This document shows, piece after piece, positions 3,371-57,279 of a DNA stretch of 64,000 nucleotides. Positions within the stretch are counted from its first letter, which is position 1, and each line of letters opens with the position of its first letter. Below the pieces are notes generated by a model that searched no databases, was not told the DNA's origin, and saw only the letters and a list, made by a program, of their open reading frames with translations. Origin of the DNA: an uncultured Eubacteriales bacterium (GTDB lineage Bacteria; Bacillota; Clostridia; Christensenellales; Aristaeellaceae); assembly GCA_900315315.1 (NCBI GenBank), contig OMYT01000016.1:1-64000 (forward strand). Reading direction: 5' to 3'. The position numbers were made by a program, and so were the translations under genes.

Positions 3371-5314
3371 TCATCCGTCGCGTTTCTTTTTCTTTTTCTC
3401 CTCATACATGAGGCTGTCCGCTTCAAGGACGTAATCGTCCAGCGGCTTCCTTTCCTCCGGATCAGTCAGCACGAAGCCGGAGCTGATGCTGACGACATCC
3501 GGCACACCGAGGGCTTTTGCTTCGGCAGGCAATGCGGAGGACACCGAATCAAGCAGTTTTCGGACGTCCTCTTCGTTTTCGGCCGGCATGAGCAGCAGGA
3601 ACTCGTCTCCCCCGTAGCGCACGGCGATCGCGCCTTCGGGAAGAACCCGGAGGATGACCTCGGCAACGCTTCTGATCGCCTGGTCCCCGACCGAATGGCC
3701 GAAGGTATCGTTGATATGCTTCAGGCGGTCCATGTCGATAAAGACAATCGCGAGTTTTCCGCCCCTGCCGGTCACATCCCGATACAAAGGATACGCCAGG
3801 TCATGATATCCCAGGCGGTTATACAGGCCGGTCAGATTGTCTTTCATCGAGATGCCGGCCAGTACCTGGTTGATGTAGGAAAGATTCCTCCTGGCAAAGA
3901 ATGCTCTCAGCGCCATGGTCAGGGTATTCACCAGGGAGGAGACACCCTGGATCCGGATCAGGTCCAGGCAGTCCCATATAGCCAGGTATCCGACGGTGTG
4001 TTCCATGAAGTGAATCGGCGCAAACAGGTGGTTCTCTCCCGGGCCTTCATACTCCGTGACATTCAGCGTACTCCTGACACGCATCCGCCCGAACCGGGGC
4101 GGTCTCCCCGCCTCCCAGGAAAACACCTGTTCCATTCTGTCCGAATATCCTTCGACGGGCATCCCGTCGCCCGGATCCCGCATGCGTCCCATCCGGTCCC
4201 TGAATTCGATATGCTTTCCGTTCTCAAACAGATCACGGTCCAGCACCAGGCTGGCGCCTTTGCAGTTCACGGCGGAAAGGCAGGCGATCAGCGCCTCGCA
4301 CATTTCCTCCATCGTCCTGCAACCCGGAAGCTGGTACTGAAGCACCGTAAGCTTGTAATCGAAATCCGTCACCCTGAAGGTCCGGCTGATATATTCCTTG
4401 ACCTGTTTCCGGATATCCCCGGTCGCTGGAGCGGCATGCCCCGTTGTTTCCCGCAGCACAAGCTCCGTCGGCGTATAGATATGTCCGGGAACCTCTTCGC
4501 CGGCCCAGATCCTCCGCATGACATCCATGCAGACGTCTCCCATGCTCCAGCACACCTGGTCCACCGTGGTGATCGAAGGTGACAGGGAGAATGATACGTC
4601 GGTATTGTCAAACCCGGTGACGTAAAAATCCCTCGGGACCTTCAGGCCCGCGCTTTCCGCGGCGTGGCAGATCCCCAGGGCAATATGGTCGTTGGCGCAG
4701 ATTACCGCCTGCGGAGTCCGGCCGTTATGGCGGGTAATCAGCTCATTGAATGCCCGGATCCCGCTTTCGATAATGAAACTTTCGGAATAGAGGCGGTCTT
4801 CCCTGCAGGGAAGATCATTGTCTTTGCAGTAATCCAGCAGCGCGCGGGTTCGGGCCTGGTTTTCATAATTATCGGACGGGCCCATGGCAAACCAGAAATC
4901 CGTCAGCCCCATCTCCTGATGCAGATGCCTGATCACTGATTTCATCGCGCTGTAGTTGTCAATGCCCACATAATAAAACCCGTCAATATCATTGGCCATA
5001 GCCACAACAGGCTTTCCTGACGCCGCCGCTTCCCGCACCGTATACAACACGCCCCTGGTATAGGAATCGGAATCGGCATCCATAATGCTGTTGACGTCCA
5101 GGATAATCCCGTCAAAATCACGGTAGTCCGGAAGACGGTAGATATTATATTCCCCGCGGTTATGCTCGGAAGCAAAGTCGAAATATCCGTCGCTGCGGAC
5201 AATATAAAGGTTGACCGGTTCATCCATGCCCTGAATCGCGCGCTGCAGTCCGGCTGTCCGTTCATACGTGAACTTCCTCATGCAGTCGTTCAGAATGTAC
5301 AGGACCCTTTTCAT
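3371..5314 (-). CDS. Sugar-binding-domain diguanylate cyclase
   Basis: A 647-residue cytoplasmic protein. Residues 1 to about 285 resemble the ligand-binding domain of LacI-type regulators (YTRGVLYTVREAA, ICANDHIALGICHAAESAG, DFYVTGFDNTDVS) but there is no helix-turn-helix before it and no signal peptide. A middle linker leads to a C-terminal GGDEF domain (about 470-645) with DNLTGLYNRLGY, FIDMDRLKHINDTFGH and an intact YGGDEF near residue 565, so it should make cyclic di-GMP. It is the last gene of a run with uxuA and uxuB, 50 bases after uxuB, so the inferred ligand is a sugar or uronate. The N-terminal architecture is shared with the EAL protein at 53 kb. ATG follows GGAGG well spaced. Confidence 0.85.
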   Translation of the reverse strand: MKRVLYILNDCMRKFTYERTAGLQRAIQGMDEPVNLYIVRSDGYFDFASEHNRGEYNIYRLPDYRDFDGIILDVNSIMDADSDSYTRGVLYTVREAAASGKPVVAMANDIDGFYYVGIDNYSAMKSVIRHLHQEMGLTDFWFAMGPSDNYENQARTRALLDYCKDNDLPCREDRLYSESFIIESGIRAFNELITRHNGRTPQAVICANDHIALGICHAAESAGLKVPRDFYVTGFDNTDVSFSLSPSITTVDQVCWSMGDVCMDVMRRIWAGEEVPGHIYTPTELVLRETTGHAAPATGDIRKQVKEYISRTFRVTDFDYKLTVLQYQLPGCRTMEEMCEALIACLSAVNCKGASLVLDRDLFENGKHIEFRDRMGRMRDPGDGMPVEGYSDRMEQVFSWEAGRPPRFGRMRVRSTLNVTEYEGPGENHLFAPIHFMEHTVGYLAIWDCLDLIRIQGVSSLVNTLTMALRAFFARRNLSYINQVLAGISMKDNLTGLYNRLGYHDLAYPLYRDVTGRGGKLAIVFIDMDRLKHINDTFGHSVGDQAIRSVAEVILRVLPEGAIAVRYGGDEFLLLMPAENEEDVRKLLDSVSSALPAEAKALGVPDVVSISSGFVLTDPEERKPLDDYVLEADSLMYEEKKKKKRDG

Positions 5315-41989: not shown

Positions 41990-42072
<83 letters not shown>

Positions 42073-50823: not shown

Positions 50824-50856
50824 AGATGCAGACAGAAAAAAAACCGCCTGCACTCA

Positions 50857-50953
50857 GACCGGGCAGCCCCGCAGCACATCCCGTCTGATGCTTACTGCTG
50901 CTTCCGTCAGGACCTGACAGGGTTCACACCGAAGGATCGCACAGGACCCAATC
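50857..50953 (-). ncRNA. ffs: Signal recognition particle RNA (small, 4.5S type)
   Basis: The minus strand contains the conserved SRP apical loop: CCTGTCAGGTCCTGACGG, then AAGCAGCAGTAAGC. This is the Ffh-binding site, with the GGAAGCAG-type internal loop. The ends GATTGGGT and GCCCGGTC pair over eight bases (with G-T pairs). A run of T follows at 50843-50836. It lacks the Alu domain of the longer Bacillus type. A consensus-like promoter lies 25 bases upstream. The ends are estimated from pairing. Confidence 0.9.
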
Positions 50954-50977
50954 TTCATCGCGCAAACGGCAAAAAAG

Positions 50978-52650: not shown

Positions 52651-53181
52651 TTATTCATTTATCAGCTTCATCATTCTCGCATCCCCCGAGATCGCCTTGT
52701 ACAGCAGCAGCCCCAGCATCCCGCAGGCAATAATCTCCCCGATTCCCACCGTCACAACCAGCATAATCCAGATGCTGTTCCCGCCAAACACGCTACCGAA
52801 AACTTCCACTTCTGTCACGCCGTATACTTTCATCAGCACTACCGGGATAATCGCCATGTTGCTGATCACCGGCGGAATCCATGCCAGCAGGGGTTTCTTC
52901 CTCAGCAGCCGGGTGCCGATCGCACCCAGCAGCGTGGCCAGGCTTCCGAATGCCACGTCCCACGCTGCGCACCCGGTAATCAGGTTGGCCAGCACGCAGC
53001 CGACCGCCAGTCCCGGCACTGCCGCCGCCGTAAACACCGGCAGAATCGTCAGCGCCTCGGAAAGGCGGACCTGGATCGCGCCGCTTGCCAGGCCCAGCGC
53101 CGCCGCCAGCATCGTCAGCACCACATACAGGGCAGCGATCACGCCGCCGAAAGCAACCATCTTCGTCGTGTTCTTTTTCAT
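52651..53181 (-). CDS. queT: Queuosine precursor transporter QueT
   Basis: A 176-residue membrane protein with about five or six helices. The start KMVAFGGVIAALYVVLTML and IQVRLSEALTILPVFTAAAVPGLAVGCVLANLITG are characteristic of QueT, an S-component-like ECF transporter for preQ0/preQ1. The transcript leader folds as a preQ1-I riboswitch, which confirms the ligand. It stands alone; no queuosine biosynthesis genes are next to it. Confidence 0.93.
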   Translation of the reverse strand: MKKNTTKMVAFGGVIAALYVVLTMLAAALGLASGAIQVRLSEALTILPVFTAAAVPGLAVGCVLANLITGCAAWDVAFGSLATLLGAIGTRLLRKKPLLAWIPPVISNMAIIPVVLMKVYGVTEVEVFGSVFGGNSIWIMLVVTVGIGEIIACGMLGLLLYKAISGDARMMKLINE

Positions 53182-53281: not shown

Positions 53282-53415
53282 GAACAAAAAGAAAACCCGT
53301 TTCTTTTGCTTTTTCCGCCGTCGTGTGTTATACTTTGCCTGCTTCAGAGAAAAAGATATTGCGCCGCAGCTGGATATCACAGCACTGTAAACGAGAGAGC
53401 AGGGGGATTTCCTTC

Positions 53416-56400
53416 ATGACCGAAAAGCCGAAGCTGATCGGTGTCTGCCTGTCCCAGGCCCACAGTTTTCCGAACACCCGGTTTGTCAGCGCCCTCACCG
53501 GAGCCGCCTCCGCCGAGGGTTTTGGTGTCGCACTTTTCAACTCCTCTCTGGATTTCTACTGGCATGAAAAAGACAATCAGGCCGCCCGCGCCGTCTACAG
53601 AGCCATCCGCTATGAGCTCTTCTCCGCGATCCTGATTATTTATCATACCTTCCATGATGACCGCCTCGTCTCCGAGATCGTGAAGCGCGCGCACGAGCAT
53701 CACGTCCCCGTGATCTGTGCCGGCGCGGAGCTTCCGGGCTGCTGGTCCGTTGTCAACGATTATGAGCAAAGTTACAAATCCCTCCTCCGCCATGTCATCC
53801 GGGACCATGGAGCGAAGGATACTTTCTTCATGGCCGGTATAAAAAACGAGCCCAACTCCGAGGACCGTTTCCGCTGTTACCGGGAGGTGCTGGAGGAGTT
53901 CTCCCTTCCCTTCCGGGAGTCGCAGATGGCCTATGGAAACTACTGGTCCCAGCCCGCGCGCAAAATCGTCCGGAAACTGATCCACAGTCGGAAAAAACTC
54001 CCGCAGGCGATCTTCTGCGCCAATGACACCATGGCTGTCGCCGTCTGCGACACACTCCGGGAAAACGGTTTCCGCGTTCCTGAGGACGTGATTGTCACCG
54101 GTTTTGACGGTTCGCCCGTTTCCTGGATGGTCAAGCCGAATCTGACCACCTGCGGCGAGGATCCGGATGCGCTCGCCGCCCGGATCATGGACCTCCTTGC
54201 CCGCCTCCGTGCGGGTGAGGAGCCGCCCATGCGAATCACTCATTCCTTCCGCCCGGTTCTGTCGGAATCCTGCGGCTGCCCCGCCGTCCCGGACAGCCGT
54301 TTTGATCCCGCCTCCGTTTTCCGTCAGGCGGAGATGCTGAACACGCATGAAAACGATCTGTATTATAAGGTAGAGCTGATGCTCAAGCAGCGGGACCGGG
54401 ATTCCTTCCTGAAAATGGTTTCCCAGTCCATTCTTCCGGATTCGGTCATTTATCTCAACCGCCGTTTCCCGGAAATCTATGACGGAGCCGATTTCTTTGC
54501 CGATTCGATTGAGGAAGATCTCCTGGCCGTGCCCTTCCGCGAGCCGGATCAGCCGCTCGTGGTCGAGCCCTGCACCCTTTCCTCCCTCCGCCCGCCCCCC
54601 GGCCGGAAGCCGGCCACCACCGTCTTTGACGTCATCCGGGCCGGTGCCAATGCCTGCGGTTTTTTCGCCGCCCGCACCGAGGATCTGTCCCGCGATGTTC
54701 AGCTGATCAAGCGCCTTTCGGACGTTCTGAGCCTGATCTTCAACATTCAGCTCGGAAACGCCCGCCAGCAGGCCCTCATCACCCATCTGGACAACTCCCT
54801 CTATCTCGATGGCGTCACCGGCCTGAGCAATCTGAAAGGCCTGACCCGCTGGTTTGAAAACTATTGCGCGGACCCGGCCAGCCATCAACATCCCCTGGCG
54901 CTCTCGGTTTACTGCATCAACCGCTATTCCTATATTTATGAGAATTACGGTATCGGCGACACGGAGGAGATCGCGAAGCTGACCGGCAGCAGGCTTTCCT
55001 CTGTCAACGGCGATGCCCTCATCGTCGCGCGGATCTCCGATGATCAGTTTGTCGTGGTCAATTCCGCCGAAAACCGTGCGAAGCTCAGCCGCATCATTGA
55101 CCGCTTCACCAAAGTTTTTTTCACCCATATCGAAACCTGGAATGCCGCCAGCTCCAAGCAGTATTATCTGGAGGTTAACTGCGGCTGCACCGTCATGGAT
55201 GCGGGCTGGGAAAACGCGACCCTTGAAAACCTGATCCGCCTTGCCCTGGGCGAGCTGTACCTCAACCGGATGCGTTCCGGCTCCCGGGATGTTGTCAAGC
55301 AGAAAGCCAATTCCCCCGCCATGTACAGCGCCTTCAGCCTCCTCATGGAAAAGAATCTCCTGCGTTTTCACTTTCAGCCGATCGTGGACGCCAGAACGGC
55401 GCAGATCGTTGCCTATGAAGCCCTCATGCGGACGGATAATCTGATCAAGCTGACTCCCCTGGAGGTCCTCGATATCGCCCGGGAATACAACCGGCTCTAC
55501 GATGTGGAAAAAGCCACGCTCTTCGGCATTATCGAACGGTATGTTCGCAACATCAGCGATTTTAACGGCTGTAAAGTTTTCATCAATACGATCCCCGGCC
55601 ATTTTCTCTCCCGGGAGGACTGTGCCATCCTCCGCTCCCGCTATGAAAGCTATCTGGACTGTTTCGTTTTTGAGCTGACCGAGCAGAATTCCACCTCCGA
55701 TGAAGAACTCGCCAGGCTGAAAAGCCTCAGCAAGGACGGCAGCCGCACTCTCATCGCCATCGATGATTACGGCACCGGCCACAGCAATATCGTCAATGTC
55801 CTTCGCTACGCCCCGCATTTGATCAAGATCGACCGGGAGCTGATCTCCGGCATCCGGAATGACGCCAACAAGCAGCTTTTTGTCCGCAACACCATTGACC
55901 TTGCGCATCAGAACGGGATCCGCGCCCTTGCCGAAGGTGTTGAAACCGCCGACGAGCTCCGCACCGTGATCGGCCTCGGGGTGGATCTGATCCAGGGCTT
56001 TTATACCGGCCGCCCCGCGGAGCGCCCGCTGCCCGCCGTCAGCGATCAGGTCCGCAGCCTCATTCTCGGGGAGAATCAGGCGCTCACCCGCTATGACCGC
56101 AACGAGCAGATCTGCGCCGCCGCATCCGGCGAAACCCTTGACCTGCTGGACCCCGCTCTTGAAACCTATACCTGTGTCCGGGTCCCCGCCGGCCGTCTCA
56201 CCCTGATTGGGCATCCGAAACAGGCCGTGGATATGGTTATCCGCGTCCCGGACGACACCAGGGCGGAACTCACACTCCGCGATGTAAGCATCCGGGGCGT
56301 CAGCGAGCCTGTCCTCCAGCTCGGGGACCGCTGCGATCTGACCCTTCGCCTGGAGGGCAGCAATTTCCTGCATAAGGACGGGATCCGCGTCCCCGCCTCT

Positions 56401-57279
56401 GCCCGCCTGACCGTTGTCGGTGATGGTGATCTCACGGTTACGAACACCCGGAATGATTCCATCGGCATCGGTGCCAATTGCAACGATCCTTACGGCACCA
56501 TCATTCTTGACCTTGCCGGCAGGCTTTCCGTCCGCTCCTCCGGTGACAGGGTGGTCTGCCTTGGCGGCGGCCGCAGTGCCGGTGAAGGCATCCGCCTTCT
56601 CCGCGGTGCCTGCAGCTTCCAGGCCTCCGGCAGCACCGTTCTCGGCGTCGGCAGCGTCGCCGGCGATGCCCTGATCAGCATCCCGGGCGCTTCCGTTTCC
56701 GTCACTCTTGAGGGGGATGACGCGGTCGGTCTGGGAACCTTCTCCGGCGCCGCCTCCATTCATTCTGCCGGCGCTCTCACCCTGGACCTGACCTGTCGGC
56801 GTGCCGCCGGCATCGGCTCCATGAACGGTTCCGGGGAAACCGTGCTGGAGGGCGGTTCAGTCTCTGTCACGGTCCATTGTGATGTCGGCGCCTGCATCGG
56901 CACCTTCTGCGGCGAATATGCTTCCCGCATCTGCGGCGCTGCGGTCCGCTTCAGCGGGGACGGTACCCGCGTCGCCGGTCTCGGCAGCCCGGACGGCGCC
57001 TGCAGCACGCACATCGAAAGCGGTGATGTGCAGGGCGAAGTCGCCGCCGGCGTTCGTCTGCTCCTCGGCAATAATCATTCCCGCCTTGTCGTCACCGGCG
57101 GCAACGTCCGCCTCTTCCCTGACGAATCGCAGGTCCCGGTCAGTCCCGGCGGTCTTCCCCTCCGCCGCCAAACCCCGAAGGAGGACCATTTTGAGCAGAC
57201 CTTCTCCGACCGTCGCGGCTCCTGGACCTACAAAGCCGATAGAAACCCCGAAGGCGCCCTCACCGTCTGGATACCTTGA
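53416..57279 (+). CDS. Sugar-binding-domain EAL phosphodiesterase with beta-helix-like tail
   Basis: A 1287-residue protein with no signal or membrane segment. Residues 1-270 are a LacI-type ligand-binding domain without DNA-binding head (KLIGVCLSQAHSFPNTRF, IFCANDTMAVAVCDTL, VIVTGFDGSPVS). A linker leads to a GGDEF fold (about 460-630) whose motif is ISDDQF, so it should not make cyclic di-GMP. The EAL domain (about 645-880) is intact: YEALMR, FELTEQ, AIDDYGTGHSN, KIDREL, ALAEGVET, so cyclic di-GMP hydrolysis is expected. From about 918 to 1231 a Gly/Ser/Val-rich region repeats the GIGS/GLGT/IGTF pattern, like a stacked beta-helix. The start follows AGGGGG. Confidence 0.85.
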   Translation: MTEKPKLIGVCLSQAHSFPNTRFVSALTGAASAEGFGVALFNSSLDFYWHEKDNQAARAVYRAIRYELFSAILIIYHTFHDDRLVSEIVKRAHEHHVPVICAGAELPGCWSVVNDYEQSYKSLLRHVIRDHGAKDTFFMAGIKNEPNSEDRFRCYREVLEEFSLPFRESQMAYGNYWSQPARKIVRKLIHSRKKLPQAIFCANDTMAVAVCDTLRENGFRVPEDVIVTGFDGSPVSWMVKPNLTTCGEDPDALAARIMDLLARLRAGEEPPMRITHSFRPVLSESCGCPAVPDSRFDPASVFRQAEMLNTHENDLYYKVELMLKQRDRDSFLKMVSQSILPDSVIYLNRRFPEIYDGADFFADSIEEDLLAVPFREPDQPLVVEPCTLSSLRPPPGRKPATTVFDVIRAGANACGFFAARTEDLSRDVQLIKRLSDVLSLIFNIQLGNARQQALITHLDNSLYLDGVTGLSNLKGLTRWFENYCADPASHQHPLALSVYCINRYSYIYENYGIGDTEEIAKLTGSRLSSVNGDALIVARISDDQFVVVNSAENRAKLSRIIDRFTKVFFTHIETWNAASSKQYYLEVNCGCTVMDAGWENATLENLIRLALGELYLNRMRSGSRDVVKQKANSPAMYSAFSLLMEKNLLRFHFQPIVDARTAQIVAYEALMRTDNLIKLTPLEVLDIAREYNRLYDVEKATLFGIIERYVRNISDFNGCKVFINTIPGHFLSREDCAILRSRYESYLDCFVFELTEQNSTSDEELARLKSLSKDGSRTLIAIDDYGTGHSNIVNVLRYAPHLIKIDRELISGIRNDANKQLFVRNTIDLAHQNGIRALAEGVETADELRTVIGLGVDLIQGFYTGRPAERPLPAVSDQVRSLILGENQALTRYDRNEQICAAASGETLDLLDPALETYTCVRVPAGRLTLIGHPKQAVDMVIRVPDDTRAELTLRDVSIRGVSEPVLQLGDRCDLTLRLEGSNFLHKDGIRVPASARLTVVGDGDLTVTNTRNDSIGIGANCNDPYGTIILDLAGRLSVRSSGDRVVCLGGGRSAGEGIRLLRGACSFQASGSTVLGVGSVAGDALISIPGASVSVTLEGDDAVGLGTFSGAASIHSAGALTLDLTCRRAAGIGSMNGSGETVLEGGSVSVTVHCDVGACIGTFCGEYASRICGAAVRFSGDGTRVAGLGSPDGACSTHIESGDVQGEVAAGVRLLLGNNHSRLVVTGGNVRLFPDESQVPVSPGGLPLRRQTPKEDHFEQTFSDRRGSWTYKADRNPEGALTVWIP

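Follow-up and report, generated by a model that had tools for sequence, protein, structure and literature searches.

What would a predicted cyclic di-GMP (c-di-GMP) phosphodiesterase inside the cell do with a beta-helix of the extracellular type? The question is raised by one gene of an uncultured Eubacteriales bacterium (assembly GCA_900315315.1, contig OMYT01000016.1), of which a stretch of 64,000 nucleotides, here called the window, was analyzed. The encoded protein of 1287 residues combines a LacI-type ligand-binding core, a degenerate GGDEF domain, an EAL domain and a long glycine-rich tail, an arrangement first pointed out in an earlier examination of the letters and their translations (below, the sequence-only reading). 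The EAL plus beta-helix architecture is real, conserved and undescribed within the open-licence literature searched, and the fold and family of the window protein are well supported. The protein seems to belong to a widespread, apparently unnamed family, in which a c-di-GMP enzyme located inside the cell carries an extracellular-type beta-helix, within a deep EAL subfamily. Our tentative answer, to which we give a probability of roughly 0.48, is that the protein works in the cytoplasm as a soluble phosphodiesterase of c-di-GMP and carries a recognition domain at either end; its anatomy is computed, its ligands and activity are putative.

Domain order in the window protein and its relatives

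The N-terminal core is recognized by Peripla_BP_3 (residues 131-273, E 2.3e-20), Peripla_BP_4 (80-268) and Peripla_BP_1 (59-231), and its best match in the PDB is CcpA (2fep, E 2.5e-21). No helix-turn-helix profile of Pfam matched the protein, the ligand core of which begins at about residue 7, and a DNA-binding LacI/GalR regulator was therefore put aside as a candidate. The following domain carries ISDDQF and thus lacks the GGDEF/GGEEF signature of a diguanylate cyclase. The EAL domain scores 150.3 bits in Pfam (cut-off 31.3) and contains E668, N724, E753, E756, D783, D784, K804, E840, E843 and Q860, which we take to be the metal- and substrate-binding or catalytic positions; all ten are identical in 42 of 42 homologues, 37 with and five without a tail. 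The proposed domain order, including the degenerate ISDDQF, is borne out by computation. Among NCBIfam models, the best 25 of 36 families were EAL or LacI-type models, all far under their cut-offs. As had also been noted from the letters, neither a signal segment nor a membrane-like segment is present in the window protein, its highest 19-residue Kyte-Doolittle mean being 1.39.

The comparison covered 37 full-length proteins carrying four family labels (f1, f58, f74 and f91) of one class: the window protein, 12 proteins from a family sample, 10 of the 20 loci from a scan of named genomes, and 14 strong matches from a class sample. The remaining named-genome loci either repeated genomes already included (six) or were incomplete (L042, L043, L049 and L055). 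The EAL domain precedes the tail in 37/37, while a GGDEF domain is present in 28/37 and the LacI-type core (Peripla_BP_3) in 27/37. Five proteins (L051, L052, L054, L131, L132) have N-terminal hydrophobic segments before the EAL domain (means 2.28-2.72), judged by eye to form a hairpin, and three more (L024, L025, L133) carry other N-termini. At its C-terminus, L052 is further extended by a long stretch rich in Pro and Ala. Hydrophobic means of 1.62-1.85, higher than in the window protein, occur inside the ligand core or the tail of L019, L020, L021, L046 and L048. Among the 42 homologues, the GGDEF signature was seen intact only in L142 (RFGGDEF), a protein that has both EAL and tail.

In many genomes of the class, therefore, the EAL domain and the tail make up a conserved, constant module, while the N-termini are exchangeable. 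The sequence-only reading knew of no described signalling protein with this order of domains, and no description of an EAL plus beta-helix protein was found in the open-licence literature, although the searches were partly strict and this constitutes weak evidence; what has to be amended is the impression of a single unusual protein. In the accessible text of a review on c-di-GMP sensing (PMC8846402), a word search did not return "beta-helix".

Fold and kinship of the tail

Structure prediction models the tail confidently as a beta-helix, as the sequence-only reading had anticipated. The tail contains seven [GC]-x-G-[STGA] motifs between residues 1017 and 1188, a number reached by none of 10000 tail shuffles, and chance glycine-rich sequence was put aside as an explanation in view of the confident model and this count. 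The repeats of glycine-rich strands had been correctly recognized from the letters, but their extent, given as more than 300 residues, was too short for a tail of about 388. Its C-terminal part (1211-1287) is mostly missing in the shorter tails of L024-L027. Structural matches of the tail model include L. reuteri SRRP, AlgE and AlgG (VIA-align); Cthe_2159 is absent among the best 50 VIA-align matches listed, which decides nothing either way. When the EAL domain and the tail were modelled together, the best 50 Foldseek matches listed were EAL structures.

The region after residue 867 yields only a meaningless Pfam match (E 0.15), and the tail alone matches no NCBIfam model, no sequence in a plasmid search and nothing credible in the PDB. 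Beta_helix_3 (PF18889) does not match the window tail up to E 10, and no bactofilin profile is among the matches listed for the window protein (up to E 10) or for 13 tails (up to E 1). A profile of these 13 tails retrieved the structure of Cthe_2159 (4peu, E 1.3e-4), and the Pfam family Cthe_2159 (PF14262) matches 3 of the 13 weakly (best E 0.0021); a search for PF14262 across the window's own genome gave zero matches. Six genomes of the class sample matched the tail weakly, two of which encode clear Cthe_2159 proteins (E 3.3e-39 and 5.3e-37); for the other four, Beta_helix_3 was found once above and once below the cut-off, and two had no relevant Pfam match.

In a profile-profile comparison, the tail profile aligned over 226 columns with four secreted non-EAL proteins, selected as earlier hits of the tail profiles, at a score of 121 (E 2e-15, probability 98.5). 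For the reversed control the score was 36.9 (E 8e-4), and for ten column shuffles at most 16.0 (E 0.46 or worse), so that repeats account for part, not most, of the score. A signal-like N-terminus was seen by eye in five of the seven inspected non-EAL relatives. Taken together, the profile matches, the relatives from the class search and the profile-profile alignment show the tail to be a remote relative of secreted beta-helices, among them the carbohydrate-binding Cthe_2159 proteins, in agreement with the resemblance noted earlier to extracellular carbohydrate-binding beta-helices; no profile connects the tail with a regulatory domain so far reported alongside EAL. In passages of PMC6712302 the Cthe_2159 proteins are presented as binders of cellulose and polygalacturonate, and in passages of PMC9210967 their family is related to pectic-acid-binding adhesins. 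Beta-helices of the tail's kin are known as extracellular glycan binders and adhesins.

Distribution, descent and surroundings of the gene

The tail occurs once in the window's genome (197 contigs, 4.26 Mb, 89% complete), which has 20 EAL and 45 GGDEF matches. In the family sample the tail was matched in 12/200 genomes, or 10/200 after removal of G025 (E 4.3e-4) and G101 (E 8.3e-4), in which the matched frames were unrelated and encode no EAL protein. Six of 396 genomes matched in the order sample, where G242 was dropped as a repeat protein with a signal-like start and no EAL in the fetched stretch. The 19/391 genomes of the class sample comprise the window's genome, 12 genomes with the 14 strong matches, and the six weak ones, which were dropped as encoding beta-helix proteins without EAL (signal-like N-terminus by eye in 4/6, N-terminus off the locus in 2/6). 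Three of 398 genomes matched in the phylum sample, none of them outside the class. The tail profile alone matches 21/45 genomes in the window's genus and 61/78 sampled genomes in genus g230, counts that refer to tail matches of any architecture, fragments among them. By their titles, the 20 loci of the named-genome scan derive from metagenome-assembled genomes (19) and an uncultured one, and 11 of them come from an animal gut site or faeces.

Tail-less homologues were sought with the core alone as query (E up to 1e-60, 200 genomes). Five were identified (L153, L154, L155, L160, L161), with LacI-type core, GGDEF and EAL in 902-919 residues stop to stop, terminating 24-30 residues past the EAL domain; genomes G013 and G084 hold the tailed and tail-less forms together. 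In a tree of the 42 EAL domains, a branch with support 90/84, present in 91% of 200 bootstrap trees, separates these five from the rest, and they form a subclade nested among tailed proteins. As they miss only the tail, the tail appears dispensable to the core. In a further locus, L162, seemingly a decayed paralogue, a piece of LacI-type core and GGDEF shares its frame with an unrelated stretch that may be secreted. The 42 EAL domains are set apart from 18 others of the window's genome (its 20 matches minus the window protein and the 67-residue piece L076) by a stem of 2.4 changes per column (SH-aLRT 100), in a quick tree search without bootstrap and with an outgroup from one genome. This is most simply read as a single fusion, swapping of N-termini and a single loss of the tail, given a sampling that favoured tailed proteins and the same single-genome outgroup.

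The tail is under purifying selection, its ratio of nonsynonymous to synonymous substitution rates (dN/dS) being 0.095-0.34 in 8/8 pairs, with dS near saturation in some of them; the EAL domain gives 0.03-0.12 in seven computable pairs. In the pair L019/L053 the LacI-type core (0.39) evolves faster than the tail (0.25) and the EAL domain (0.09), as if the choice of ligand were shifting.

The features of the gene are listed in Table 1. Although the open frame continues upstream as far as a GTG (53323), the start was taken at the ATG, where the closest relatives, L016 (75% identical) and L017 (62%), also start in the alignment. The opposite strand carries a frame of 1128 residues (53377-56763), taken as a by-product of high G+C. 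That the gene itself is a frame artefact was put aside in view of the 37 homologues and of dN/dS below 0.4 in every computable region and pair. A promoter scan gave five sites, none on the + strand of the upstream gap. The divergent upstream gene (52651-53181, -) resembles, by eye, a QueT-type transporter and has the same place in L016 and L017; apart from synteny within a genus and pairs of relatives, the neighbour genes have nothing in common. Immediately before the tailed gene, L048 (2774-4192) and L056 (2793-4190) each have a frame with a CxxxCxxC-type motif, by eye a radical S-adenosylmethionine protein. Elsewhere in the window, a 655-residue frame has a GGDEF match (3383-3844, -), and Rfam at gathering cut-offs identified only the bacterial large signal recognition particle RNA (50844-50972, -) and a tRNA (41990-42072, -).

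Table 1. Positions in the window of the gene and of the parts of its product
Feature	Residues	Positions	Strand	Basis or remark
Whole gene	1287 plus stop	53416..57279	+	Open reading frame; start backed by alignment with L016 and L017
LacI/GalR-type ligand core	about 7-290	53434..54285	+	Pfam, PDB match; outer limits by eye
Degenerate GGDEF domain	463-615	54802..55260	+	Pfam GGDEF E 2.2e-10
ISDDQF replacing the GGDEF signature	540-545	55033..55050	+	
EAL domain	644-867	55345..56016	+	Pfam EAL E 7.2e-44
Linker, predicted helix	868-899	56017..56112	+	Helix at tail-model residues 10-26; start low-confidence
Beta-helix tail	900-1287	56113..57276	+	About 388 residues
Seven GxG-motif rungs, spacing 27-31 residues	1017-1191	56464..56988	+	
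C-terminal tail part	1211-1287	57046..57276	+	Alignment; limits are our own division

Candidate functions and comparison with known systems

If the protein is a phosphodiesterase with two recognition domains, the LacI-type core would bind a small sugar-like metabolite, and its ligand state would be relayed via the inactive GGDEF domain to an EAL dimer. The tail may have as its ligand a glycan inside the cell, or some other elongated molecule, and would place or tune the enzyme, catalysis itself presumably not needing it. In the sequence-only reading, the sensing of a soluble oligosaccharide and a scaffold function had both been named as candidate roles of the tail. Should the ligand of the tail be a glycan, gut bacteria would offer a link, open to testing, between the carbohydrate in the cell and the control of c-di-GMP. 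The natural tail-less homologues, two of whose genomes encode the tailed form as well, are ready-made controls. A broader proposal, which we consider rather unlikely in its full form, is that the proteins combining EAL and beta-helix constitute, in gut Clostridia, an unnamed class of cytoplasmic phosphodiesterases that respond to glycans. A domain like those of surface glycan adhesins would have been brought into the cell to serve as receptor for polysaccharide that is imported, stored or nascent, directly coupling carbohydrate state to c-di-GMP breakdown and so to attachment.

Several observations weigh against a phosphodiesterase with two recognition domains. No carbohydrate genes recur beside the tailed gene among the relatives. 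The window tail itself is matched by neither PF14262 nor any other Pfam model, a profile of 26 tails retrieves 4peu more weakly (E 0.0067), and Foldseek returned zero matches to the tail model at E 0.001 or better (best 0.014). As the reversed profile-profile control was not null, repeats inflate that score. The tail is more variable than the EAL domain (mean entropy 1.92 vs 1.27), and few of its polar positions are conserved, those kept in most of 24 tails being K987, E/D988, R1012 and N1013. Finally, the model of EAL plus tail has a predicted template modelling score (pTM) of 0.61 and leaves the mutual orientation of the two parts unfixed.

The flexible link and the scarcity of conserved polar positions are also what might be expected if the tail is a scaffold for protein interaction or oligomerisation, the main rival, which we regard as somewhat doubtful yet a serious contender. 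Cytoplasmic beta-helix folds such as bactofilins are able to polymerise, and the beta-helix could hold a local or trigger phosphodiesterase on a partner or polymer, with c-di-GMP turnover switching the contact. Such trigger enzymes are known in E. coli (PdeR and PdeL; PMC5052742). However, the nearest sequence kin of the tail are secreted, some of them from a carbohydrate-binding family, no bactofilin match was found in Pfam, and no conserved neighbour gene offers itself as a partner. It is improbable that the EAL domain is non-hydrolytic and the protein a c-di-GMP receptor with the tail as its output. The long stem separating this family from the 18 EAL domains of the window's genome means that its biochemistry may have shifted, and the GGDEF signature is lost except in L142; degenerate receptors such as FimX and LapD, however, have lost some catalytic positions, whereas all ten are retained here throughout.

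The loss of the tail in one subclade with the core intact, and its faster evolution relative to the EAL domain, would suit a relic or passive spacer from fusion with a surface-protein gene. This appears very improbable for a tail that is retained in all four family labels and is under the constraint described above, even with saturated dS in some pairs. Least credible of all is a tail located outside the cell: at least some of its relatives are secreted, and most of the non-EAL ones inspected have, by eye, signal-like N-termini, but in the window protein the EAL domain and the tail are a single chain with neither signal nor membrane segment, and in the five relatives whose N-termini are strongly hydrophobic these lie ahead of the EAL domain.

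Among known systems, the c-di-GMP accessory domain YkuI_C is located after EAL. It resembles the tail as an accessory domain, regarded as probably intracellular in passages of PMC8846402, but is CACHE-like rather than a beta-helix. In the same source, a LacI-like domain is listed as one of the putative sensors found in c-di-GMP proteins, its role unassigned. LacI/GalR regulators, CcpA being the nearest, share the ligand-binding core, but in the window protein this core lacks the DNA-binding part and is fused to GGDEF-EAL. PdeR and PdeL (PMC5052742) resemble the window protein only in manner of working, as an active EAL domain that also acts via a macromolecular target (EAL activity being predicted here), and are without a beta-helix. 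With the secreted Beta_helix_3 repeat proteins the tail shares a colinear profile alignment, but these are secreted and their Pfam model misses the window tail; the pectic-acid-binding region of L. reuteri SRRP belongs to a surface adhesin and has 9% identity to it. The Cthe_2159 family shares the beta-helix fold and a remote sequence kinship with tails of the window type, although its members are secreted, the two fetched lack EAL, and its model does not match the window tail. Finally, the EAL-type c-di-GMP phosphodiesterases (PF00563), with kin in the PDB such as Lmo0131 and a Vibrio EAL enzyme, have the EAL fold and the ten catalytic positions in common with the window protein, which differs from them in its C-terminal beta-helix and its place in a separate deep clade.

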